Shown: in pieces, positions 1,356 through 14,540 of the stretch | Layout of the letters: each line of letters opens with the position of its first letter | How positions within the stretch are numbered: the first letter of the stretch is position 1 | From: a bacterium | GTDB lineage: Bacteria; UBP15; UBA6099 | DNA: 16,557 nt | Direction: 5' to 3' | Assembly: GCA_029564595.1 (NCBI GenBank) | Contig: JAKQPS010000148.1 | Span: 1 to 16,557, forward strand | Program-made: the position numbers and the translations under genes | The notes under the pieces: generated by a model | Told to the model about the DNA's origin: nothing | The model's input: only the letters and a program-made list of their open reading frames with translations | Database searches by the model: none

Positions 1356-2075
1356 ATGAGAAAAGACACGATACTTGTCGCTGACGACGAGCCTTCAATC
1401 GTCGAGTTGCTCGTTTACAATCTGGGCAGGGAAGGATACGACGTGGCGGCGGCGGCAGACGGGCCGGAGACGTTGCGCGTGTTCGCCGATAAAAAACCGT
1501 CGCTTGTCATACTGGATATCTCCATGCCGGGCATGGACGGGTTCGACGTTTGCAGGGAGATAAGAAAGGTGTCGGATGTTCCGATAATCATGCTTACGGC
1601 GAGGAACACCGAGACGAACAAGGTGGTGGGGCTGGAGCTTGGAGCGGACGACTATGTGACCAAGCCGTTCTCTGTGGCGGAACTGATGGCGAGAGTGAAG
1701 GCGAATCTCAGGAGGGCGGAGGCGGGGCGCGGCGTCGCGGACGGAAACAGCCCGGCGAATTTGATAACCAGAGGCGATTTCAGCATGGACCGGGACAGGC
1801 GCGAGGTCAAAGTCGGCGGCGCGAAGGCGGACCTGACCACAAAGGAGTTCGATCTGCTTTGGCTTCTGGCTTCAAGGCCGGGGGTGGTTTTTTCGAGGCA
1901 GAGGATACTTGACATAGTATGGGGCGGAGAAGCCTGCGTTGTGGACAGGGCGATTGATGTTCACGTGCGGCACGTCAGAGAGAAATTAGACGCCGCAAGC
2001 CCCGGAGGCGGGGGGCTGGTCAACTCCGTCAGAGGTGTCGGTTACAGGTTCGAGGAGCCGGGCGGTTCGCGCTGA
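1356..2075 (+). CDS. phoB: Phosphate-regulon response regulator, PhoB/PhoP type (OmpR family)
   Basis: This 239-residue protein is a two-domain DNA-binding response regulator. The receiver domain (about 1-120) has the acidic pair D10-D11, the phosphoacceptor D54 in VILDISMPGMDGF, the conserved T81 in MLTARN, and K103 in VTKPF. A winged-helix OmpR/PhoB-type output domain follows (about 135-235), with LTTKEFDLLWLLA, the recognition-helix stretch VDRAIDVHVRHVREKL, and the terminal wing NSVRGVGYRF. Receiver and wing motifs alone do not separate PhoB from other OmpR-family members. The assignment rests on position: it directly precedes a PhoR-type kinase, and the pst genes follow. Phosphorylated, it should bind the 11-bp repeats at 3877-3920. 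The ribosome-binding site is AAGGA, a rather long twelve bases before the ATG. A TAAAAT hexamer at 1323-1328 could be its -10, but I see no good -35. Confidence 0.9.
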   Translation: MRKDTILVADDEPSIVELLVYNLGREGYDVAAAADGPETLRVFADKKPSLVILDISMPGMDGFDVCREIRKVSDVPIIMLTARNTETNKVVGLELGADDYVTKPFSVAELMARVKANLRRAEAGRGVADGNSPANLITRGDFSMDRDRREVKVGGAKADLTTKEFDLLWLLASRPGVVFSRQRILDIVWGGEACVVDRAIDVHVRHVREKLDAASPGGGGLVNSVRGVGYRFEEPGGSR

Positions 2076-2112
2076 AACGGCGGCGGGCGGAATTGCGCTT
2101 CGGCGCGGTATT

Positions 2113-3873
2113 ATGAAATCAATTATCGCAAAATACATCGCTTTCCTTTTGCTTGCTACGCTCGCTTCGATAGCGACCAGCGGGCTGATTTCGATTTCGA
2201 TATTGAACAAGAAGCATCAGGAATCTATGGAAGATAGGCTGTTCGGACTGACGGCGGTCGTCGCGTCGCTAGTCAGAGAGGTTCCGCGGGAAAGGCTTCG
2301 GGACGCTGTGGGGGACGCTGCCCGGACTCTGGGCATGGAAGGGGATATCAGGCTCACTGTGATCATGGCGGACGGTTCGGTGGCCGCCGACAGCGCGGCG
2401 GACGCGGACAGCATGGACAATCATCTCGACAGGCCGGAGATCGCCGAGGCCGCGAATGGGAAAGTGGGTTTCGCGTCGCGGAAAAGCGACACGGTTAATA
2501 AAAGATACATGTACGCCGCGAGAAAGGCGGTTCTGAAAAACGGGGAAGAATGCTTCGCGCGAGCCGCCGCTCCGATGGAAAGAGTTGAGTCGTCGGCAAA
2601 GCAGGCGCGCGCGTCTATGATTACGGCCGCGGCCTTCACCCTTGCCGCGGCTCTCATAGCCGTGCTGGCTTCTTCCATCATGTTTGCCGCTCCGGTCAGA
2701 CGTCTGACCGAAATGAGCGCGAAGATTTCAGCAGGGGATTTCTCCGCGCGCAGCGGCGTCAGTGGCGACAACGAATTCGGAGTTCTGGGCCGCTCGATGG
2801 ATTCGATGGCGGAAAGCATCGAAAGAGACGTCGCCGAACTGAAACGCGCGCGAGACGACATCGAAAACATACTACGGGGCATGAGGGACGGAGTTATTGT
2901 TGTGGACTCCGGCAAACGAATAATCCTTATCAATGAAGCTGTCGAGGAGATATTCCGCGTTGAATGCCGGAACAGCTCCGGGAAACCGCTTTTGAGCGTG
3001 TTGAGGCTGGCGGCTCTTAACGGCGCTGTGGACGCGGTTCTTGCCGACGGCGCTCCGCGCGCGATTGAAATTGAGACCGACCCCATCGAGGGCACAGTCA
3101 TCGACGCGAGAATATTCCCTTTCAGAGGCGGCGACGCGGACTCAGGCGCCATTGTCGCCGCCCGCGACATCTCCCGCCTTAAAAAACTGGAAATCGTAAG
3201 GCGCGAGTTCATTGAGAACGCTTCTCACGAACTTCGCACCCCTGTGGCGATAATCAGAGGGTTCGTCGAAACACTCCTCGCCGGAGCCTCGAAAGACGCG
3301 TCCGCGCTCGACAGGTTCCTCATCCTGCTTGACAAGGAATCCCTCCGCCTTATGAACCTGACCGAAGATATTCTGTCCCTTGAAAGGGCCCAGAGAAGGA
3401 GTTCCCCGGACGACGCCGAATCGTTCGACGCGGCGGCTCTCCTCAAAGACTGCGCATCCTCCTTTGACCTCTTCATTTTCGGGGAAGGGCTGAAGCTGGA
3501 AACGGACTTCCCGCCGGAACCGGCGTTCCTCCGCATGTCCAAACAGGATTTTAATCAGATATTCGTCAACCTGATAGACAATGCCGTCAAGTTCACCGAC
3601 AGAGGCGTCGTCAGACTGAAGGTGGAAAGCGCGGCAGACGCTGTCAGGATTTCCGTGAGCGACACCGGGGTCGGCATTCCGGCGCAGGATATCGAGCGTG
3701 TTTTCGAGAGGTTCTATAGAGTGGACAAATCCCGCTCCCGCGAACGCGGCGGCACGGGGCTGGGGCTTTCCATCGTGAAGCATCTGACGGAAAAATGGGG
3801 CGGCTCTGTGTCGGTGGAGAGCAAATTGGGAACCGGTTCGTCTTTCTCCGTGTCTTTTCCAGCCGCCCTCTGA
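2113..3873 (+). CDS. phoR: Phosphate-regulon sensor histidine kinase, PhoR type
   Basis: This 586-residue membrane kinase is the likely partner of the regulator just upstream (37-base gap). Order of parts: TM1 (about 5-29), an extracytoplasmic region of roughly 140 residues, TM2 (about 169-193), HAMP linker (about 190-242), PAS domain (about 244-345) and the kinase core. In the core, H372 in SHELRTP is the phosphorylated histidine, N486/N490 in NLIDNAVKF form the N box, DTGVGIP (517-523) is G1 and GGTGLGLSIVKHL (546-558) is G2. All catalytic motifs are intact. I chose the ATG at 2113 because it places TM1 at the N-terminus. A GTG at 2035 in the same frame would overlap the regulator gene and add 26 residues of hydrophilic, arginine-rich sequence. 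The ribosome-binding site at 2113 is weak, so translational coupling is possible. The sizeable sensor domain resembles Gram-positive-type PhoR more than E. coli PhoR. Confidence 0.9.
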   Translation: MKSIIAKYIAFLLLATLASIATSGLISISILNKKHQESMEDRLFGLTAVVASLVREVPRERLRDAVGDAARTLGMEGDIRLTVIMADGSVAADSAADADSMDNHLDRPEIAEAANGKVGFASRKSDTVNKRYMYAARKAVLKNGEECFARAAAPMERVESSAKQARASMITAAAFTLAAALIAVLASSIMFAAPVRRLTEMSAKISAGDFSARSGVSGDNEFGVLGRSMDSMAESIERDVAELKRARDDIENILRGMRDGVIVVDSGKRIILINEAVEEIFRVECRNSSGKPLLSVLRLAALNGAVDAVLADGAPRAIEIETDPIEGTVIDARIFPFRGGDADSGAIVAARDISRLKKLEIVRREFIENASHELRTPVAIIRGFVETLLAGASKDASALDRFLILLDKESLRLMNLTEDILSLERAQRRSSPDDAESFDAAALLKDCASSFDLFIFGEGLKLETDFPPEPAFLRMSKQDFNQIFVNLIDNAVKFTDRGVVRLKVESAADAVRISVSDTGVGIPAQDIERVFERFYRVDKSRSRERGGTGLGLSIVKHLTEKWGGSVSVESKLGTGSSFSVSFPAAL

Positions 3874-3876
3874 AAC

Positions 3877-3930
3877 TTAAAGAACAATTAACCCCCCCTT
3901 AATATTCCCTTAACATTGCCGTCATATAGT
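3877..3930 (+). promoter_or_regulatory. Pho box array and -10 element driving the pst operon
   Basis: Starting four bases after the phoR stop codon, TTAA occurs at 3877, 3888, 3899 and 3910, exactly every 11 bases. The units are TTAAAGAACAA, TTAACCCCCCC, TTAATATTCCC and TTAACATTGCC. GTCATA follows in the same register at 3921. Direct repeats with an 11-bp period are the known binding pattern of PhoB/PhoP regulators, and TTAACA is close to the Bacillus-type half-site. TATAGT at 3925-3930 is a five-of-six -10 element. It lies nine bases beyond the last TTAACA, where a regulator-replaced -35 would sit. Transcription would start near 3937 and leave a leader of about 108 bases before pstS. Confidence 0.8.
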
Positions 3931-4030
3931 TATCGCCGTGAAAGCTATTGGGCCGCAAAAAATTATTCCGCAGCAAAGACCGCTCGGAAACTATTTCATA
4001 CATCCGCAAATATCTTTTTCCCATCAAAGA

Positions 4031-4037
4031 GGAGGAG
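4031..4037 (+). promoter_or_regulatory. Strong ribosome-binding site fixing the pstS start
   Basis: GGAGGAG lies seven bases before the ATG at 4045. The same frame is open from 3916, but that upstream ATG falls inside the Pho repeats, before the predicted transcript start. The 43 extra residues would also bury the lipoprotein signal. The start at 4045 is therefore preferred. Confidence 0.85.
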
Positions 4038-4044
4038 CCTCAAC

Positions 4045-4929
4045 ATGAAAAGAGCATTGGCATTGACGATTGCGTGTGTCGCGGCGATAGCGTTAGCCGC
4101 CGGATGCAGCAGGCCCGAAGGGGCGAAGACGGCGTCGCAAGGAGTTTCGGGAAGCATACAAATCAAGGGAAGCGACACGATGGTGAACCTGACGCAGGCG
4201 CTGGCGGAGAAGTACATGGCGACAAATCCGGACGCCAGCGTGGCGGTCACCGGCGGCGGTTCCGGCACAGGCATCGCCGCAATGATAAACGGAACGACGG
4301 ACATCGCCGAAAGCTCGCGCGCGATTAAGGAAAAAGAGCTTGAAGCCGCCGCCGCAAACGGCATCTCTCCCAAAGAGTTTCTTGTCGGATATGACGGGCT
4401 TGCGGTGGTCGTTCATCCCGACAATCCTGTGTCGGAACTGACGCTGCCCCAACTCAAAGATATCTTCACAGGCAAGATTACAAACTGGAAAGAGTTCGGC
4501 GGCCCGGACGCCGGCATCGTCGTTCTTTCCCGCGAGGTCAATTCCGGCACTCACGTTTACTTCAAGGAGCATGTGCTAAACGAAGGCGACTCCAAAGGAA
4601 CGGAAGAGTTCGTCAGAACCGCTCTGTTGATGCCGTCCTCGCAAGCCATAGCGGACGAAACTGCTAAAAACAGGAACACAATCGGCTACTACGGGATGGC
4701 GTATATTTCGGAGAAGCAAAAAGCAGTGAAAATAGTCAACGAGAACGGCGAGGCGGTGTCGCCTACGCTGGAGAACGTGGTGGCAAAGAAGTATCCCGTG
4801 TCTCGCCCGCTCTTCATGTACACGAGAGGCGAACCCGCCGGAGTCACAAAATCTTTCATGGACTTCGTGTTCTCGGCAGAAGGGCAGAACATTGTTAAAG
4901 AGCTGGGCTTCGTGCCGGTGAAGATGTGA
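4045..4929 (+). CDS. pstS: Phosphate ABC transporter substrate-binding lipoprotein PstS
   Basis: This 294-residue protein captures phosphate outside the inner membrane and delivers it to PstCA. The first 20 residues are a lipoprotein signal peptide ending in the lipobox LAAGC, with C21 as the acylated cysteine, so the mature protein is membrane anchored. The PBP-like fold shows the phosphate-binding loops of the family: GSDTM (42-46), GGGSGTG (70-76), SSR (90-92) and REVNSGTH (163-170). FTGKITNW (141-148) and NTIGYYGMAYI (211-221) are also typical of PstS. The gene follows the Pho box array and a strong ribosome-binding site, and should be the first and most highly expressed gene of the operon. 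E. coli PstS is a soluble periplasmic protein, so the lipid anchor is a difference from that model, though common elsewhere. Identification is secure. Confidence 0.96.
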   Translation: MKRALALTIACVAAIALAAGCSRPEGAKTASQGVSGSIQIKGSDTMVNLTQALAEKYMATNPDASVAVTGGGSGTGIAAMINGTTDIAESSRAIKEKELEAAAANGISPKEFLVGYDGLAVVVHPDNPVSELTLPQLKDIFTGKITNWKEFGGPDAGIVVLSREVNSGTHVYFKEHVLNEGDSKGTEEFVRTALLMPSSQAIADETAKNRNTIGYYGMAYISEKQKAVKIVNENGEAVSPTLENVVAKKYPVSRPLFMYTRGEPAGVTKSFMDFVFSAEGQNIVKELGFVPVKM

Positions 4930-4970
4930 GCGCGGAGTTGCAATCGCAGAACGTAAATGCGTTGAAGCGC

Positions 4971-4975
4971 GGAGG
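4971..4975 (+). promoter_or_regulatory. Ribosome-binding site fixing the porin start
   Basis: GGAGG ends four bases before the ATG at 4980. An upstream in-frame ATG at 4926 overlaps the end of pstS, but it would put 18 hydrophilic residues in front of a clear signal peptide. The ATG at 4980 is the better start. Confidence 0.75.
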
Positions 4976-4979
4976 ATTT

Positions 4980-6056
4980 ATGAAGAATATAAAGGCGATC
5001 ATATCGACGGCATTTCTAATGGCGGCGATAGCGGCGATTCAAATGCCCGCTCTCGCCGACGCCGAAATGGACGCTCTGAAGGCAAGGCTTGAATCGCTGG
5101 AAAAAGAAGTGGTCGAACTGAAAGCCGCTATTGACAAGAAGTCGTCAAAACCTGAAGAAAAAGGCGTGGAAATAAGCGGGTTGGGGTATCTTTCATACTC
5201 CTACGACACGGACGGGAACGATAAAAGCGCGAACGAGTTCGCTATCGACCGCTTTTATCTTACAGTCAGAAAGAAAGTTGGCGAGAGGACAAACGTAAGA
5301 TACACGACTGACATAAAAACAACGCCGGACGGCAATTTCGACGCTTACATCAAATACGGATATGTTGAAGTGTCGGAGGCGGTATTCGGCGCGAATCTCG
5401 TTTTCGGATTGCAGGACGCTCCTTGGGTCGGTTATGAGGATTCGGAATGGAAATATAGAATGCAGCAGAAGAGCGCTTCCGATCTCGCGGGCATGCTTAA
5501 TTCGGCGGAGTTCGGAGTGGCTTTGAAAAACAAGTTTTCAAAGGGAGACTATCATTTTCTTGTCGCTAACGGAGAAGGCGGAAACCGAAGAGAACGCGAC
5601 ACCAAGAAAGACATTCAGGGCCGCGTTTCCTTTGCGCTCGGCGGCAAAGCTCCAAAGCTGTCACTCTATGGGGATGTCGGCTCGATTGACGGAAACAAGT
5701 CCAACAGGATTGGCGCAATGTTGAGCGGTGGCGCCGGCCGCTTTTCTTACGGCTTAAGCTTAATGAGCGGCTCTGACTATGACGATTCCGCCGATAGAAC
5801 TGTGAATGAGAGCGTTTATTCTGCGTTTGCAAGCCATTCTTTGAAGGATTCTCCTTGGTCTGTTTTCGCGCGATATGATCGCAACGATCCCGACACAAGT
5901 GTATCAGGCGATTTGATATCCCGCGTTATTGCCGGCGTCGCGGTCGACCTCGACAAAAATCTCAACCTATCCATAGCGGCTCACGTCGACGACGACGACG
6001 CTGCCGCGGAAAAGAAGGACAAAGCGGTAAAAGCGGTTCTACAGGTGAAATACTGA
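4980..6056 (+). CDS. Outer-membrane porin with N-terminal coiled coil, probably phosphate-related
   Basis: This 358-residue protein has a signal peptide ending near ALADA (about residues 22-28). A short heptad-like segment rich in Leu, Glu and Lys follows (about 28-53). The rest shows alternating hydrophobic/polar strands: GYLSYSYDTDG, DRFYLTVRKKV, NVRYTTDIKTT, FDAYIKYGYVEV, RFSYGLSLMSG and WSVFARYDRND. The chain ends in VLQVKY, and a terminal aromatic residue on the last strand is a classic signal for the outer-membrane assembly machinery. The general plan resembles OprO/OprP-type phosphate-selective porins, but I cannot see residues that prove phosphate selectivity. Its position between pstS (50-base gap) and pstC (five-base gap) makes it part of the phosphate-starvation operon, and the phosphate role is inferred from that. 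An acidic run of six aspartates near the C-terminus is probably an exposed loop. Confidence 0.82.
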   Translation: MKNIKAIISTAFLMAAIAAIQMPALADAEMDALKARLESLEKEVVELKAAIDKKSSKPEEKGVEISGLGYLSYSYDTDGNDKSANEFAIDRFYLTVRKKVGERTNVRYTTDIKTTPDGNFDAYIKYGYVEVSEAVFGANLVFGLQDAPWVGYEDSEWKYRMQQKSASDLAGMLNSAEFGVALKNKFSKGDYHFLVANGEGGNRRERDTKKDIQGRVSFALGGKAPKLSLYGDVGSIDGNKSNRIGAMLSGGAGRFSYGLSLMSGSDYDDSADRTVNESVYSAFASHSLKDSPWSVFARYDRNDPDTSVSGDLISRVIAGVAVDLDKNLNLSIAAHVDDDDAAAEKKDKAVKAVLQVKY

Positions 6057-6061
6057 GGCCC

Positions 6062-6988
6062 ATGATGGAGCGGAATACGGCAATTGTGAAGAAATCAGCC
6101 GGTGTTAAACGAAAAACCGCGCGCTTCAAGGAGTTCGCGTGGGAGAAGAGCATAGCCGTTCTAGGCTCGATTTCCATCGTCATACTAGCTCTGATATTTC
6201 TATTTCTAGTTAAAGACGGGATTCCGCTGTTCCGGCATGTGGGAGTGGCGGAGTTCCTGTTCGGAAACACATGGCGACCTATCTCCGAGCCGCCTGTCTT
6301 CGGCATCCTACCTCTCATTGCCGGGTCGATTATCGTCACTCTTGCCGCGGCGGCGATGAGTGTGCCAATGGGGGTCGGCTGCGCGATTTATATCGCCGAG
6401 ATTGCGGACCCCCGCGCGAAGGAATTCCTTAAGGTCGTCGTCGAGCTGATAGCAGGCATACCGTCGGTCGTGCTCGGCTTTATAGGCGTTCTTACGCTTG
6501 CCCCTTTCGTTCAGGAAATGTTCGACCTCCCGACAGGGCTGACGGCGTTCACAGGGGCGGTCGTGCTGGCTTTTATGGCCGTGCCGACTATCGCAACCAT
6601 TTCCGAAGACGCCATTTATTCGGTTCCGAGGGAATACCGGGAGGCGTCGCTTGCGATGGGAGCGACGCGCTGGCAGACGATTTACAAGGTGATTATCCCC
6701 GCGTCGTCGTCGGGAATCCTCGCCGCGTCTCTTCTCGGCGTTGGTCGCGTTATCGGCGAAACGATGGTGGTCATGATGGTGTGCGGCAACGCGCCGGTGA
6801 TTCCAAACACCATTTTTCAGCCGGTCAGAACCATGACAGCCACCATCGCAGCCGAGATGGGAGAAACTGTTCACGGCGGCGATCACTACATGGCGCTGTT
6901 CGCCGTGGGGCTTGCGCTGTTCGCGATATCGTTCGCCATAAACGCCGCCGCCTCCGGAGCGGTGAGGCGGAGAGGGGCGGGGGCTTGA
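6062..6988 (+). CDS. pstC: Phosphate ABC transporter permease PstC
   Basis: This 308-residue inner-membrane protein is one of the two channel subunits of the Pst importer. A positively charged cytoplasmic tail of about 30 residues precedes the first membrane segment (about 31-50). Further hydrophobic helices lie around 80-110, 120-140, 150-172, 214-240 and near the C-terminus (about 277-300). The EAA loop that contacts the ATPase is REASLAMGATRWQTIYKV (about 193-210), followed by IIPASSSGIL. GIPSVVLGF and VIGETMVVMM are typical of this subunit. Two adjacent ATG codons (6062, 6065) are possible starts, and the ribosome-binding site is weak, so translation may be coupled to the porin stop five bases upstream. 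Length and motifs are those of a normal PstC. Confidence 0.95.
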   Translation: MMERNTAIVKKSAGVKRKTARFKEFAWEKSIAVLGSISIVILALIFLFLVKDGIPLFRHVGVAEFLFGNTWRPISEPPVFGILPLIAGSIIVTLAAAAMSVPMGVGCAIYIAEIADPRAKEFLKVVVELIAGIPSVVLGFIGVLTLAPFVQEMFDLPTGLTAFTGAVVLAFMAVPTIATISEDAIYSVPREYREASLAMGATRWQTIYKVIIPASSSGILAASLLGVGRVIGETMVVMMVCGNAPVIPNTIFQPVRTMTATIAAEMGETVHGGDHYMALFAVGLALFAISFAINAAASGAVRRRGAGA

Positions 6989-6992
6989 AGAA

Positions 6993-7838
6993 ATGAGCGC
7001 AAAATCCAGCGAGAGAGCGGCTTTTCTGGCGCTGCGGATATGCGGGTACGCGGTGGCGGCTCCGATACTGCTCATCCTCGGTTTGCTGATTGTCAAAGGC
7101 GCGCCCGCGCTGAGCGCCGAGTTCCTTCTGAGCGCGCCCCGAATGGGCCTCAAGGAGGGCGGCATTTTCCCGGCCATAGTCGGCACCGTTATCCTAGTGG
7201 CTCTCGCCATATCGGTCGCGCTTCCCCTCGGAGTCGCTTGCGCCGTCTACCTGAACGAGTACGCAGGCGACAGCAGGCTCACGCGGCTCATCCGCCTGAG
7301 CATAGTCAACCTAGCGGGCGTGCCGTCCGTCGTGTTCGGCCTTTTCGGCCTCGGCCTTTTCGTGCTGTTTCTCAAGTTCGGCGTTTCCATACTGTCCGGC
7401 TCGCTTACTCTCGCGTTCCTCATTTTGCCCGTTGTGATTACGGCCTCGGAAGAGGCGCTCACGTCGGTTCCAAAGTCCTTCAGAGAGGCGTCTCTCGCGC
7501 TCGGAGCCACGAAGATGCAGACCATCCTCAGAGTGGTTCTGCCCAACGCGCTGCCCGGCATGTTGACCGGCGCCATACTAGGCGTAAGCCGCGCCGCGGG
7601 CGAGACCGCTCCGATACTGTTCACCGTCGCGGCCTTTTATCTGCCCCGCCTTCCTTCTTCCATATTCGATCAGGCTATGGCTCTTCCTTATCACCTATAC
7701 ATCGTTTCAACTCAGGTTCCGGGAGCCTCGGAGACCGTCAAGTACGGAACCGCTCTCGTTCTCGTCTCGCTCGCGTTCGGCCTCAACCTTGTCGCGATTA
7801 TCGCCAGAAACAGAATCAGAAAACAAAGAAAATGGTAG
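6993..7838 (+). CDS. pstA: Phosphate ABC transporter permease PstA
   Basis: This 281-residue inner-membrane protein is the partner of PstC in the phosphate channel. It has about six hydrophobic helices: roughly 16-35, 57-88, 103-128, 134-152, 186-215 and 243-270. The EAA loop [18 protein letters not shown] (about 163-180) is followed by [28 protein letters not shown] and [12 protein letters not shown] are characteristic PstA stretches. The ATG at 6993 comes four bases after the pstC stop. The end overlaps or nearly abuts pstB, so translation of pstC, pstA and pstB is probably coupled. Nothing is truncated. Confidence 0.95.
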
Positions 7839-7846
7839 GCGTCAGC

Positions 7847-8626
7847 ATGGCTAAAGAAACCGCGCAGAACCCGGTGGAGATATCGGTCAGGGGCCTCGAC
7901 CTCTTTTACGGACGGTTTCAGGCCCTAAAGAGCGTGGAAATCGACATCCTGAAAAATCAGGTCACCGCGCTGATCGGGCCTTCCGGCTGCGGCAAATCCA
8001 CTTTCCTCCGCTCTCTGAACCGGATGAACGACATGATACAGGGCGTCAGGACTGAGGGCGTCGTGGAGTTCGAGGGACGCCGCATCCTCGATCCGGAAAC
8101 CGATGTCGCGGAACTGAGAAAACGCGTCGGCATGGTGTTTCAGAAACCCAACCCTTTCCCGATGTCGGTGTACAACAACGTGGCATACGGCCCGAGGATA
8201 CACGGCTCGGCAGGCTCGAAAAGCGACCTCGACGGAATAGTCGAGGAAAGCCTCGCGGCGGCCGCCCTGTGGGGCGAGGTGAAGGACAAACTGAAACAGT
8301 CCGCCCTATCTCTATCCGGCGGCCAGCAACAGCGGCTCTGCATAGCAAGACTTCTGGCGGTCAGGCCGGATGTTCTGCTCATGGACGAGCCTTGCTCAGC
8401 CCTTGATCCTATCGCCACTCTGAAAATCGAAGAACTTATGCGCGATCTGAAAAATCAATATACAATTGTTATTGTGACGCACAATATGCAACAGGCGGCC
8501 CGCGTGTCCGACCGCACCGCGTTCTTTCTCAACGGTGAACTGGTGGAGCAGGGCGACACGGACATGATTTTCACCCGCCCGAAAGACAAAAGGACGGAAG
8601 ACTACATCACCGGGAGGTTCGGATGA
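7847..8626 (+). CDS. pstB: Phosphate ABC transporter ATP-binding protein PstB
   Basis: This 259-residue ATPase powers phosphate import, and a dimer docks on the EAA loops of PstC and PstA. All ABC motifs are intact: Walker A GPSGCGKS (44-51), Q-loop glutamine in VFQKPNPFP (about residue 99), signature LSGGQQQR (156-163), Walker B VLLMDEP with D180 and catalytic E181, and the switch histidine H212 in [14 protein letters not shown] after the Q-loop is a PstB hallmark. I prefer the ATG at 7847, with GGTAGG seven bases upstream. A second in-frame ATG at 7832 would overlap the end of pstA and add five residues. The frame stays open well upstream, to 7040, but that stretch lies inside pstA and is not coding in this frame. 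The stop overlaps phoU by four bases. Confidence 0.96.
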
Positions 8627-9300
8627 CCGATCAGGTTCGCAGGACATACTCTCAGGAGCTAGAGGCCCTGAAACATTCCACTCTGCGCATGGGCGCGCTC
8701 GCCGAGGAACTTATCCGCTCCTCCATAAAAGCCCTCATTGAGAGAGACGCGGCCCTCGCCGCGCGCACCGTCGCCGACGATGAAAAAGTCGACGAAATGG
8801 AAGCCGCCATTAACCAGACATGCATCAGGCTCCTTGCGCTTCAGCAACCTATGGCCACCGACCTGCGCCTCATCGCAAGCTCGATGAAAATATCCTCAGA
8901 CATCGAGCGGCTGGCCGACCACACGACAAAAATTTCAAAAAAAGCCGCCATCCTCTCAGAACTGCCGCAACTCAAACCTTATGTCGATCTCCCCGAAATG
9001 GCTAAACGCGTCATCGAGATGTTCAAACTCAGCTTGGACGCCTTCATCAACCTCGACCCCGTTCTGGCCCTGAAGGTCATCGACATGGACGACTCGATAG
9101 ACGAATACAACCACAGGATTTTTACCGAACTGATTGAACTGATGAAGCGGGACCCTTCCTGCATCAACTACGTTTCGCATCTCATGGTCGTGGTTCAGTC
9201 TCTCGAACGCATCGCCGACCACGTCACCAACATCTGCGAAAGCACCGTCTTCATAGTAGAGGGAGCTTCTCCGAAATCAAGTTGGTCGGCGCGGAGTTAA
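8623..9300 (+). CDS. phoU: Phosphate signalling protein PhoU
   Basis: This 225-residue cytoplasmic protein is a negative regulator of the phosphate response. PhoU is known to link the Pst transporter to the PhoR kinase, so that the pathway is off when phosphate is plentiful. It shows the two-fold repeat of the family. Each half ends in a metal-binding acidic motif at strikingly equivalent positions: SDIERLADH (92-100) and QSLERIADH (192-200). [21 protein letters not shown] (71-91) is also typical. The start ATG overlaps the pstB stop in an ATGA arrangement, so the two are translationally coupled. It is the last gene of the operon; the next gene is on the other strand. The last ten or so residues ([10 protein letters not shown]) are unconserved. 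Confidence 0.96.
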
Positions 9301-9466
9301 CGTAAACATTTGAAAGCGTTTCTCGAAGCGCTGAAATAGCGATTCGTCGAACTGTTTGTCTGCATCGCGAAAGACTGTCTCAAATCGCATTAAAGCGCCT
9401 CCGGCGGCCAAAGAGAAACTTTTGAAAAAGTTACTCTTTGGATTCTCTTCAAAACGTTTCAATGGT

Positions 9467-9505
9467 CGTCGGGAGCGAATCGCTGCCGCGCTTCTCCTCC
9501 CGACG
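9467..9505. repeat. Hairpin next to the left inverted-repeat arm
   Basis: CGTCGGGAG (9467-9475) and CTCCCGACG (9497-9505) are perfect 9-bp reverse complements separated by 21 bases. The hairpin begins two bases inside the left arm of the large inverted repeat. There is no T-run on either side. Confidence 0.55.
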
Positions 9506-9552
9506 CCCCATGTAAATCATTTAGAAACACATGCCAAGGAGCCATTCTATCC

Positions 9553-9573
9553 GGGCTGCCCGACGGGTAGCCC
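9553..9573. repeat. REP-like hairpin, GGGCTGCCC / GGGTAGCCC
   Basis: The stem GGGCTGCCC and GGGTAGCCC has nine pairs, including one G-T, around a GAC loop. CCCTACGAAG follows. Short palindromes of the GTAGGGGC...GCCC type are frequent dispersed intergenic repeats in many bacteria. From memory this resembles that class, but copy number cannot be judged from one window. Confidence 0.5.
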
Positions 9574-9656
9574 CTACGAAGATATTTTCGATTCTCAGTG
9601 GTATTCGGAGCACAGGCATTCTCATGAAAACCCTTTTCCAATAACTTTTCACATTA

Positions 9657-9698
9657 GCGCGGCGGAGCGGAGGCGCGAACGCGCCCGCTCCGCCGCGC
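9657..9698. repeat. Very stable GC-only-type hairpin
   Basis: A 13-bp perfect outer stem (GCGCGGCGGAGCG with CGCTCCGCCGCGC) is followed by a two-base bulge and a 5-bp inner stem GGCGC/GCGCC closed by a GAAC loop. It ends one base before the right arm of the inverted repeat. The flanks have no uninterrupted T-run, so it is not a textbook terminator, although such a stem could block exonucleases or stop convergent transcription. Confidence 0.65.
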
Positions 9699-9824
9699 GC
9701 ATTGAAACGTTTTGAAAGGGATTTTAAGGGAAAACTTTTTCAACGTTACGTCATTAGTAATGCTTATTACAAATATCTCTTTATTCATGTGGATATATGC
9801 AGGCTTTAACTTGCCGATGGAAGG

Positions 9825-12800
9825 CTAGTCTGTCTTAACATCCCACCATGGGGCTAATCGAATCGTTCTGTATGGGTCTATGCTTTCACCTCTTATGTAT
9901 TTGTCTAGTTCTCTTCCGTTCACCTTTACTTTCGCGAGACCATTTCTCAGCTTGTTCCAAAACACCGACCTGATCGCATAATTAACTTTGTTTTCAGGAA
10001 TATTATTAGCTTGCTTTTCTTCAGCCAGAATCGTGCTTTTCCAGAGAAGGGCAGCCGGTGTCAACGCAGGTTTGATTTGTTGAAGCATGGCAGACATCCT
10101 TTTCGGTTCCTTTTCCCGCAATGCTGTTCTGTATAGCTCACGACAACAGCGCTCATTTAAGGCAACATCACAAGCCCATTCCGCATGGTTTCGCACCCAT
10201 CGGTTTGGATCGTTTTTTTTCAAATTACGCAATATATCGAGCGCTTCCGCGTCTGTCAGCCATGGTAGAACTGAAACCGCAAGACATCTTTCTCTTGCCA
10301 CATCCGCGCTGAGATAGTGTTTTTTTACAAAGTCCAGAATATATTTTTCCGCGCCATTGTCAACGGCAGCAAGAGTTATAACCATAGCATCCATGTCGCT
10401 TAGCCAAACGTCATCAAATATCTTTTTTCTCAATTCATCATGTTGCTGTGTTCCGCAACTCTCGACATCCCAGAGAGCCGCAATAATTTCATCCGCGCCA
10501 TATTCTAGCTTTAAGCCATATCTTTGAAATCCTTTAACGAAATGCTTCTGGTATATTTCCCACGCCAGATGAGGCTCGTGTTTCATATGAAGACACAAAA
10601 GCCTAAGTGTGAATAGCGCCATTTCGTGTTGCACAAAACCTGAGCTATCAATTCTATCCAAATATGCCTTCACAAATCTTACAAAGTCTTCTTCGTTCCT
10701 TTCCGCCCATGCTGGTATGAGTCCGACAAACCTTATTTTGTTTATCCAAGCTGAAGACCACTGATCAATTCTTTTGAGGTCTTTTCGCCACAACTCAGCT
10801 TCCGTCCGCATTCGTTCTGCTCTTTTTGAATTATCAAATATCTCTTCGATGTTTTCATTCCCAACGGAGCCATAGTCAACTCCCCATGTTGCGGAGTCAG
10901 TGTTTCTAAATGTGACGCTGCTGGACGGTGGTTTCTGACGTATTCTATTGAGGGTTCCGTCCTTGTTCAGAATATATTCCGTTGCGCTCCTTGATTCAGG
11001 CTCAAAGTAGGATGGGGGAAGACTGTCCCGAACTTTCTCATGCAATTCACGTCCCCATTTATTGAATTCTTCTTTCCTGTCTGTTTTGGCAAGCACATAG
11101 CCGGCAAAATCTTTAGGCAACGCTTGCATAAGCTTTTCATAAGTCCTGTTTGTCGATAACGTAATCGGAAAAGGTCTTTTGCTGTCAACAAAAGCCCTGA
11201 CAGCGCTTTCATCGATGAGCGGAAAAAGGTCATCATTATTTAAAATGTCGTTGAGCCAATTGCCAGAGCCTCGACTTGCCGCAATATAGAAAAGATAATA
11301 ATTTGTCGGATGGCTTACTCCGTTCTCAATTAATCGGGCTTTCGCCCATTCAAAGAATGTTTCATCCGTTTCATGTGTGCTCGATGCGATGAAACTCCAG
11401 AATGCGAATTCAGATATGCGAACGTTATTATCATCAAGAAGGATACAAGATTCGAAAGCTCCTAATGTTTTCTCTTTTGCGTATTCCGCGATATCACGCG
11501 ACAGCAAAAATCTCATAAGTAATGGTTTAGTGTCAAATATCAGAATGCCTTTTCTGGTCTGTTCGTCGGTTGACAATAACTCGAACCATTGTTTCAGCTT
11601 ATCAGGGGCGGCGTGCAAGATAATTGATTCGAAAAATACAGAAACGATATATGCTCTGTTACTGTGAAGCTCTGAAATGTATTTCTTAGTCGCAGTTATG
11701 ATGCTGTCCACAATGCTTTCATTATCTTGGACTGATTCAGAAAAGTGATATATGCCGGAAGTCTTATTAAACAGGATGCTCGGATGTTCATTGCTAAACG
11801 CTCTTGTCCGCAACACGCTCATCAACTCTGCCAATTCATCGGGATAGTATCGCGCCACCCACGGCAGATATTTATCGAAAGACATGTCTTCCTCGACAGT
11901 TCCATCAAGTCGTTTTGGTCTTCTGTTTCGGCATAGGTCTTCAAATCTGCGAAACACCTCCTTCTTGTCTGAATCGTGGATTTCTGGAAGGTCCGTTCTG
12001 GCCGCAAGCGCCCCCAGAGAGCCGAACACCTTTTCTCCCGCCTCGAAAAGTGGCTCTCTCTTCTTGATGCGTTGAATTATTGTTTCATACCATGGCGGCC
12101 TGTCTTGGCTTGCATATTGAAGCTCCTGCGGCGGATCGATAACGCCGAGACTTCGTGTAAGCAGTTGCAGTCCTTCAAGAAGCAGCATATCATCCTTGTT
12201 CGCCGCCGCTAAGACGCGCATGTCTTTAATAACCTTCTCCGTATAAACCCATCTCATAAGCAAGCCGATATTGTTCCTGATATCCTTGGGATGTCTTTTT
12301 AAACCATCATCTTCACATAAAGGCAGATTCCAAGAAATCATGGAAAGCGCGAGTGTTTTTAGAAACTCTATGTCGGGTTGAATCGAGACGAGGGACACGG
12401 CAAGCGCGGATAGTCGGAGATGATCTCTACTGGACGCAATCGGGAAACTGCGCCCCCTATATTCATAGCAACCTGTTTCATCGTTATTCGAAGTGTGAAC
12501 AAGCAGCAGCCATTGTTCGATATGTTTTTTGATAATATCCGGGGCGCTCTGTTTCCAAACTTTTGCCAGCGGATAAAAAACAAACATCTGAAGTTCGCCT
12601 TGATATAGCTTGTGGGAAAAAGCGTCAATAAAGCCAAGATAAGCCTCTGTATCCTCATTGACCCAGAAGTCCAATTTCTCAACTTTTAGGTCCGCATTGT
12701 TTGAAAAGAGCCAGCGATGAAGCAACGCGGCGCGCTTTTTCTCTGTTAAAACTCCGAGTTTCGCCTTGTCATTCACACTCAGCAGCAACGCTGAATAAAG

Positions 12801-14540
12801 AGCTTCTGTTCGTATGTCGTCTGAAGATATAGGCTCCAGAAGCGCTCGGATATCATTAGAGACTGCCGATACGTTTTTATTACCATCTATTATTCCGACT
12901 TTCTTAAGGATGTACAGCGCCCAGCCCAGCTTGACATGCTCCTTGCTCAAAATGGCGTCGAACTTATTTGCTTTTTCGGCAATCCTGAGTTCTGTAAGGT
13001 CTTGTCTAATGCTGTTGTATTTATTGTCAAAGCACTTGTCGAGCAACTCTTTATCAGCTCTCTGCGTTCCATCTGCTTCAATCGCATTTTGAGCCAGCAT
13101 AGATAAAACATCTTCGGCGTCTTGCGCGCTCTGCCATCCAAGCTTAGTCCTTATTTGGATGTCGGTTTCTTCAATTCTTGATCTAAGGTCTTCCCAAAGC
13201 ATTATCTCCTTTGAGATATTTGACAGCGCCCCCAGCCGTTCTCTAATCTTTAAGAAACCCCCGAAGAAGTGCGGTATTTTCATGTATGGCTTAATATTCT
13301 CTGGAATATCTTCAATGCATATCTGAGTTTCAAATATTCTCAGCGCATCAGACAACTCGTTATCGTCGTATTCCTTTACCGGTATTCTTTTGACACCGCT
13401 CCACGTTCTTTTGTCATATGCGGTGATATTGTCTAAAAGCCTGCTGGTAAATAGGAATCTTATGTGTGATATGTCAGCATCTCTGTCCGATAAATATGCA
13501 GAGTTATAATCATTTAGTATTTTGTTGGCGGCATTGATGGCGTCTTTTTCGTTTACTCCGTCACAAACTATCAGAATCGGCTCTTTCCATCTGCTAAGAG
13601 ACTTCTCCACGAGTTTTTCTGTCCGAGACGGATTAAATGGCTCAATTGCTTCAAAACCAGACCTCAACACTTCTCTCAGATTGCTTATTTCGCACCATGC
13701 CGAGCTGTCCAACCAGATGACAAGGGCATTAGACATATCAGAAATATTCCTTATCGCGAGAGCGGCCGCCCACGACTTGCCTGTTCCTTCCTCGCCTTCA
13801 AGGCAAGCCGCTTCCTTGTCTGTATCGCGCCACCATTCTAAAACCGCGTTCTCTACGGAGCGCCTTCTCACAGATTTATTCAGATTAATATCGTATGAAA
13901 ACAATCTATTTGCTGGCTTTTCTCCAAACCTCTCTTTAAGTTTATTTGCGGCGGCGGCGCGCACAGAGCGGTAGCTGGCAATAAGATCTTTTACGCGCTT
14001 TTCGATTTCCCTTATTCTCTCTTTCACATCAGGCGTTTGGCTCTGAGTTTTTGCCCAACTGTGAAATTCCGGTTCCAAATCCTTTATCGGCGCGAAAGAC
14101 AAGATCGCATCCCAGTAAGTTACACACAGACAGAACAAGTCGGACAATTCATCAGTCCTATGGTCCAGCACAACAATATCGAGACCCGTTTCATTGGAAA
14201 TCTTCTTCAGCCTATCGTCCGTCTGTTCATCCAGTGACCTAGTTGTGGCCAGAACATAGCACTGTAACTCTTTATTCAGCCTTATGCACTGACTTATTTC
14301 TCCTTCGATTTCATTGAGGTTGAAAGCTGTCGTTTCTTGATATCGTTTTGCTTGCATTGTAACAACGCCGGAGACGCTACGCGCATCGCCGCCCGGCTGG
14401 CTGCCTGCCCGCGCCACCACAAACTGCACGTCGAGAAGTTTTCCTAGAAGCGCTGCGATCAGTCCTTCGAAACCGTTTTCGCCTGAAGCAGTCATGCCTC
14501 TCAACGCTTCGATTAGCTGATTCATTTTATCATGAGACAT
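9825..14540 (-). CDS. Avs-like antiviral STAND NTPase with Mrr-like nuclease domain (Avs4-type architecture)
   Basis: This 1571-residue protein has three parts. Residues 1-130 look like an Mrr-type PD-(D/E)xK nuclease: GFEGLIAALL (E25), GGDARS (D52), then MQAKRY with Q63 and K65, the QxK form usual in Mrr. Residues about 225-450 form a STAND P-loop NTPase with Walker A GEEGTGKS (249-256), Walker B PILIVCDG (D327) and a FLFTSR sensor-like strand (362-367). About 1100 residues of helical, repeat-like sequence follow, with a HEAT-like stretch near 1417-1465. In known Avs proteins such a C-terminal region recognises a phage protein (terminase or portal), the NTPase oligomerises, and the N-terminal nuclease degrades DNA. 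Mrr plus STAND at this length fits Avs4. GGAG about nine bases upstream supports the ATG at 14540. The gene is AT-richer than its neighbours. Function is inferred; similarity to a characterised Avs4 was not tested. Confidence 0.82.
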   Translation of the reverse strand: MSHDKMNQLIEALRGMTASGENGFEGLIAALLGKLLDVQFVVARAGSQPGGDARSVSGVVTMQAKRYQETTAFNLNEIEGEISQCIRLNKELQCYVLATTRSLDEQTDDRLKKISNETGLDIVVLDHRTDELSDLFCLCVTYWDAILSFAPIKDLEPEFHSWAKTQSQTPDVKERIREIEKRVKDLIASYRSVRAAAANKLKERFGEKPANRLFSYDINLNKSVRRRSVENAVLEWWRDTDKEAACLEGEEGTGKSWAAALAIRNISDMSNALVIWLDSSAWCEISNLREVLRSGFEAIEPFNPSRTEKLVEKSLSRWKEPILIVCDGVNEKDAINAANKILNDYNSAYLSDRDADISHIRFLFTSRLLDNITAYDKRTWSGVKRIPVKEYDDNELSDALRIFETQICIEDIPENIKPYMKIPHFFGGFLKIRERLGALSNISKEIMLWEDLRSRIEETDIQIRTKLGWQSAQDAEDVLSMLAQNAIEADGTQRADKELLDKCFDNKYNSIRQDLTELRIAEKANKFDAILSKEHVKLGWALYILKKVGIIDGNKNVSAVSNDIRALLEPISSDDIRTEALYSALLLSVNDKAKLGVLTEKKRAALLHRWLFSNNADLKVEKLDFWVNEDTEAYLGFIDAFSHKLYQGELQMFVFYPLAKVWKQSAPDIIKKHIEQWLLLVHTSNNDETGCYEYRGRSFPIASSRDHLRLSALAVSLVSIQPDIEFLKTLALSMISWNLPLCEDDGLKRHPKDIRNNIGLLMRWVYTEKVIKDMRVLAAANKDDMLLLEGLQLLTRSLGVIDPPQELQYASQDRPPWYETIIQRIKKREPLFEAGEKVFGSLGALAARTDLPEIHDSDKKEVFRRFEDLCRNRRPKRLDGTVEEDMSFDKYLPWVARYYPDELAELMSVLRTRAFSNEHPSILFNKTSGIYHFSESVQDNESIVDSIITATKKYISELHSNRAYIVSVFFESIILHAAPDKLKQWFELLSTDEQTRKGILIFDTKPLLMRFLLSRDIAEYAKEKTLGAFESCILLDDNNVRISEFAFWSFIASSTHETDETFFEWAKARLIENGVSHPTNYYLFYIAASRGSGNWLNDILNNDDLFPLIDESAVRAFVDSKRPFPITLSTNRTYEKLMQALPKDFAGYVLAKTDRKEEFNKWGRELHEKVRDSLPPSYFEPESRSATEYILNKDGTLNRIRQKPPSSSVTFRNTDSATWGVDYGSVGNENIEEIFDNSKRAERMRTEAELWRKDLKRIDQWSSAWINKIRFVGLIPAWAERNEEDFVRFVKAYLDRIDSSGFVQHEMALFTLRLLCLHMKHEPHLAWEIYQKHFVKGFQRYGLKLEYGADEIIAALWDVESCGTQQHDELRKKIFDDVWLSDMDAMVITLAAVDNGAEKYILDFVKKHYLSADVARERCLAVSVLPWLTDAEALDILRNLKKNDPNRWVRNHAEWACDVALNERCCRELYRTALREKEPKRMSAMLQQIKPALTPAALLWKSTILAEEKQANNIPENKVNYAIRSVFWNKLRNGLAKVKVNGRELDKYIRGESIDPYRTIRLAPWWDVKTD

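Follow-up and report, generated by a model that had tools for sequence, protein, structure and literature searches.

The window analyzed here, a DNA stretch of 16,557 nucleotides, makes up the whole of contig C14 in a genome bin of 4.4 Mb that is 97% complete; the host, a member of a little-studied phylum, is known from metagenome bins. The locus consists of a receptor gene of the nuclease-NACHT/STAND kind and, 39 bp upstream of its start, a helicase gene truncated where the contig stops (Table 1). The receptor reading frame of 1571 codons starts with ATG and ends exactly at the listed borders; the 1571-residue chain that a sequence-only reading had placed there is thus a real ORF, and it lies on the minus strand, which that reading had left unstated.

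Table 1 Features of the receptor locus (window positions).
Feature	Position	Strand	Evidence
Receptor gene, nuclease-NACHT/STAND, 1571 aa	9825..14540	minus	ORF; 80% identical intact paralog; dN/dS 0.26
Mrr-like PD-(D/E)xK nuclease domain (predicted), N-terminal, residues 1-165 (E25, D52, Q63-A-K65)	14046..14540	minus	invariant residues; Mrr motif order; HHalign
D52 codon, predicted catalytic aspartate	14385..14387	minus	invariant in family alignment
Q63-A64-K65, third catalytic motif	14346..14354	minus	alignment and Mrr comparison
STAND/NACHT NTPase core, residues 229-440	13221..13856	minus	HHalign to NACHT profile, Avs2 and Avs4; Pfam NPHP3_N
Walker A GEEGTGKS, residues 249-256	13773..13796	minus	motif and alignment
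Walker B ILIVCDGVN, residues 322-330	13551..13577	minus	D327, G328 and N330 invariant
Post-NTPase region, residues 441-731, still alignable to family	12348..13220	minus	HHalign 7-731, 99.9%
Orphan C-terminal sensor, residues 732-1571	9828..12347	minus	no profile, tblastn or credible out-of-genus match
HKD/PLD-SNF2 helicase gene, 3' part, 658 codons, cut by contig end	14580..16557	minus	full length in L009; PADLOC C3a139

The same genome contains a second full-length, intact receptor copy (C174:979-5688) that is 80% identical to the window protein. Comparison of the two copies (dS 0.41, dN 0.109, dN/dS 0.26) shows that the receptor is a real gene under purifying selection. By region, dN/dS peaked in the NTPase (0.37) and was lowest in the post-NTPase region (0.20) and the nuclease (0.23). 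For the helicase ends, dN between the copies was 0.011 and dS 0.30; thus the receptor protein evolves about tenfold faster than the helicase end. Both receptor loci stop at contig ends inside the repeated helicase gene.

The operon upstream of the window's own helicase fragment was deduced from a same-genus contig of another bin (L009, the same sequence as JAKQBV010000378.1), in which the helicase is full length (1125 aa, 11145-14522) and its best PADLOC match is C3a139 'HKD+Snf2' (6.6e-68). This contig carries, in order, an Eco57I-type N6-methyltransferase (1423 aa), a 128-aa protein, an OLD-TOPRIM protein (603 aa), the HKD-SNF2 helicase and the start of the receptor, and a tyrosine recombinase on the opposite strand precedes the methyltransferase operon. 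Adjoining both the recombinase and the receptor operon is a second protein with an Mrr_cat match above the Pfam cut-off and an AAA/STAND-like part (L009:1-2604, minus strand), cut by the contig end. In all three same-genus copies with upstream sequence, the receptor begins about 39 bp behind this HKD-SNF2 helicase.

On its other side the receptor gene borders on an ordinary phosphate regulon (window 1356-9300, read from translations), in which genes for a response regulator and a sensor kinase are followed by one resembling those of phosphate-binding proteins, then by pst-type permease and ATPase genes and finally by phoU. Two same-genus genomes (G002 and G003) continue with other genes downstream of phoU, which suggests that the receptor locus was inserted next to the pst-phoU operon. 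The last 855 bp of the receptor are 99.9% identical in G003 at another site, the phoU region being 96.7% identical, which is suggestive of a recent transfer between species. At that different site (L003, on G003:C13) the last 243 codons are identical, and a further 3'-end fragment lies on G003:C100 (88%); both contigs end at the receptor fragment, as if the assembly had broken at a repeated locus. The intergenic space beside the regulon holds a dispersed repeat (window 9393-9537 and 9618-9744). When window 6000-9823 was used as a query, each of three same-genus genomes returned 100-116 matches, almost all of which were to these two stretches. In the repeat a conserved flank, AAACGTTTCAATG, leads into a GC-rich hairpin with a stem that differs from copy to copy; the repeat had no match in Rfam.

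Analysis of the N-terminal region revealed the Mrr-like PD-(D/E)xK motif set FE...GxD...(E/Q)xK, with G50-D52 followed by M62-Q63-A64-K65-R66-Y67. The GGD...QAK nuclease motif named in the sequence-only reading is therefore present. The motifs are not chance: E25, Q48, G50, D52, K65 and Y67 were invariant in an alignment of six homologs at 16-18% identity together with the 80% paralog. E. coli Mrr (FE...GDGGID...QAKRW) has the same motif order as the family's FE...G-D...(E/Q)-x-K; the third motif is Q-x-K in the window protein, Mrr and Avs4, and E-x-K in other family members. Because the catalytic E is replaced by Q63, as in Mrr, the putative nuclease activity of the window protein is likely, though unproven. 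HHalign comparison of the nuclease gave 92% to Avs2, 20-45% to Avs4 depending on direction, and less than 3% to unrelated controls, and the Pfam Mrr_cat_2 match was sub-threshold only. AlphaFold2 on single sequences produced unusable models for residues 1-160 and 1-450 (mean pLDDT 46 and 39, respectively), a Foldseek search with the former returned chance matches only, and sequence searches of the PDB gave no significant match. Among the PDB profile matches AspBHI ranked best (E 0.24); its alignment falls at the E-x-K motif, which alone is not evidence, and it was set aside.

The P-loop GEEGTGKS and the Walker B ending in CDG (residues 326-328), also pointed out beforehand, are both in place. 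The P-loop glycines and lysine, as well as D327, G328 and N330, were invariant in the same alignment of six homologs and the paralog. The two residues proposed for mutant controls, D52 and K255, are correct by position in the predicted motifs. HHalign matched the NTPase to a NACHT profile at 98.8% (E 1e-16), to Avs2 at 98.5% and to Avs4 at 96.4%; the comparison by domain gave 98% for Avs2 and 96% for Avs4, against 38% over 20 P-loop columns for the best unrelated control. Pfam NPHP3_N reached 26.6 bits (cut-off 24.8) when the first 450 aa were scanned alone, whereas the full 1571-aa chain had nothing above the Pfam cut-offs; one relative (P0004) passes the cut-off of NACHT PF05729. The P-loop, the NACHT-type Walker B and the profile match over about 190 residues place the protein in the STAND/NACHT superfamily.

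Sequence comparison assigns the window protein to an unnamed nuclease-NACHT family that appears to stand apart from Avs4. Its members have about 1,440-1,570 residues, and many are located on Alphaproteobacterial and Nitrospirota plasmids; NCBI names them only 'NACHT domain-containing protein' or 'hypothetical protein'. A tblastn search of plasmids revealed 11 records with distant, full-length relatives (about 1,500-1,550 residues; 16-18% identity to the window protein), whose hosts are Sphingobium, Azospirillum, Sphingomonas, Methylobacterium, Ensifer and Candidatus Manganitrophus; a Rhizobium member and a member from genome G089 were added to the family set. The family is small within the collections searched, and no relative was found in the viral contigs or phage records searched. 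Defense genes are frequent neighbors of the homologs and include HamA, a SAVED protein with a DEAD helicase, a XamI restriction-modification system, RloB and an Avs4-like STAND protein. On the Azospirillum plasmid two giant STAND-type genes are adjacent (L011:6556-16545), one encoding P0008 (PADLOC Avs4, 1.4e-23) and the other a member of the present family. At another locus, near a contig end (L029:7301-8041), a PadR-like winged-helix region is apparently fused to the family's nuclease domain. The analysis adds a family of nuclease-STAND immune receptors for which PADLOC 2.0 has no model.

Nuclease, NTPase and the region that follows match the family collinearly, at 99.9% over residues 7-731. 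Beyond this part neither the window protein nor its paralog aligns with the rest of the family; the last 840 residues scored below 1%. The window sensor scored 0.8% against the family-type sensor, whereas the eight other members, each left out singly, scored 98-100%. The nuclease of the G089 member is about as distant from the family (99.2%) as that of the window protein (99.0%), yet its sensor aligns. Since the other eight members align through the sensor and the window protein does not, the comparison favors replacement of the sensor over mere divergence. No profile match linked the window sensor to the sensors of Avs4 or Avs2, tblastn against 72,556 plasmid records gave no match even at E 1, and a search of 386 genomes returned nothing credible outside the genus. 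A match in G179 was dismissed as a fragment with eight stop codons. The C-terminus had been described beforehand as very long and helical; its length is plain, and a helical fold is plausible from a sub-threshold HEAT_2 match (E 0.01-0.035). Pairs of proteins like these, in which effector and switch are kept and the sensor is unlike that of the relatives, make the gain of new triggers testable.

The sequence-only reading had called the protein 'Avs4-type', possibly a divergent member with a new trigger. The sensor is indeed new, even within its own family, but the Avs4 label was not supported. The profile search that had been proposed gave no match to PADLOC Avs models at E<=1, nor was there a match in NCBIfam; Avs1, Avs3 and Avs5 were compared through PADLOC models only. 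The Avs2 references came from four genomes, and those for Avs4 were two annotated avs4 proteins (E. coli plasmids), one Calothrix relative and one protein from G122. In the NTPase tree of 45 sequences, likewise a proposed check, the family formed one clade (99/99) outside Avs4 and, weakly, nearer to Avs2 (87/73), but the AU test also tolerated a forced union of the family with Avs4 (p = 0.37), so the tree was no longer taken to exclude Avs4. A true but very divergent Avs4 that recognizes phage portal proteins would agree with this tolerated joint clade, with a similar size (1571 vs 1581-1587 aa), with the nuclease motif Q-[AS]-K-x-Y common to both and with a 95% match to Avs4 that runs collinearly through nuclease and NTPase. 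We nevertheless regard it as highly improbable. The PADLOC Avs4 model PDLC02169 was silent on the window protein and across its genome, whereas it scored 2290 bits on a true Avs4 (G122), and both shared domains score higher to Avs2 than to Avs4. Moreover, the window sensor scored 0.1% against the Avs4 sensor with shallow profiles (four sequences for Avs4, two for the window type), whereas P0008, the Avs4-like positive control from the Azospirillum plasmid, scored 96.5% in the same test. As far as sequence can tell, the protein seems to resemble Avs proteins in how it works, and it is not shown to be an Avs4, with whose sensor its own does not match.

An immune receptor of the nuclease-STAND kind, as had been anticipated, agrees with the Mrr-like effector, the NACHT NTPase, the long C-terminus and the defense-type neighbors; against unrelated controls, nuclease and NTPase match Avs2 collinearly, and the NTPase also matches NACHT profiles. 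Phage activation and DNA cleavage we infer. The receptor is probably a single-chain, oligomerizing, DNA-degrading anti-phage receptor that acts by abortive infection. The C-terminal 840 residues would sense a sign of infection, in all likelihood a phage protein, and thereby release the NACHT-type NTPase, which may then bind ATP and oligomerize, and oligomerization would bring the N-terminal Mrr-like PD-(D/E)xK domains together. The assembled nuclease domains would cut phage and host DNA alike, and the infection would be aborted. In Avs1-4, recognition of conserved phage proteins leads the nuclease to cut the DNA of both phage and host (PMC12931631). bNACHT25 and bNACHT32, which are PD-(D/E)XK-NACHT proteins, degrade DNA upon infection, and their D48A nuclease mutants lose defense (PMC12169576). 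The receptor may co-operate with its operon as a probable back-up, suicidal layer behind the set of N6-methyltransferase, OLD-like nuclease and HKD-SNF2 helicase.

A different trigger is unlikely but makes a serious rival reading: the receptor may guard the restriction-like operon, in which case it would fire once anti-restriction proteins of a phage had put the methyltransferase-helicase system out of action, and not in response to a phage structural protein. Its constant place behind the helicase in the three same-genus copies is consistent with this, as are the back-up effectors of related HKD-SNF2/N6-MTase systems (PMC12839542) and the guard-like sensing of bNACHT25 (PMC12169576); homologs from other phyla, however, stand without that operon, though their sensor differs. 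It is rather doubtful that the whole sensor of the nuclease-NACHT chassis was exchanged for a single-genus sensor through which the receptor senses failure or a product of the restriction-like operon; if true, this would be a modular sensor swap that ties a STAND receptor to restriction. The target of the new sensor is an approachable question. Control of non-phage targets, such as incoming plasmids or mobile elements, might be suspected from the many homologs on plasmids and near recombinases or transposases, but defense genes are commoner neighbors and Avs4 is also usually plasmid-borne, and we consider such a role very improbable.

Among known systems, BREX-related type 2 (PMC12839542) shares with the receptor's upstream operon an HKD nuclease-SNF2 helicase fusion and an N6-methyltransferase, whereas the operon here includes an OLD-TOPRIM protein, and no match to DUF499 or DUF3780 was found among the scanned proteins. 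Avs4 resembles the receptor in its Mrr-like nuclease with Q-x-K, STAND NTPase and similar length, but differs in its unrelated sensor, in the low nuclease match and in its separate position in the best NTPase tree. In Avs2, an N-terminal PD-(D/E)xK-like nuclease is likewise followed by a STAND NTPase in one chain (1400-1500 aa); however, its sensor shows no similarity, its P-loop lies near residue 372 (249 in the window protein), the grouping in the tree is weak and the PADLOC Avs2 models are silent on the window protein, one relative (P0001) giving E 0.029 over about 50 residues. The 840-residue orphan sensor also sets the window protein apart from bNACHT25/32 (clade 6), to which it was likened by description, not by sequence, its NTPase having matched a NACHT profile from other genomes. 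As described (PMC12169576), these proteins share with it a PD-(D/E)XK effector, a NACHT module and a C-terminal sensing domain, and their D48 is comparable to D52 of the window protein.
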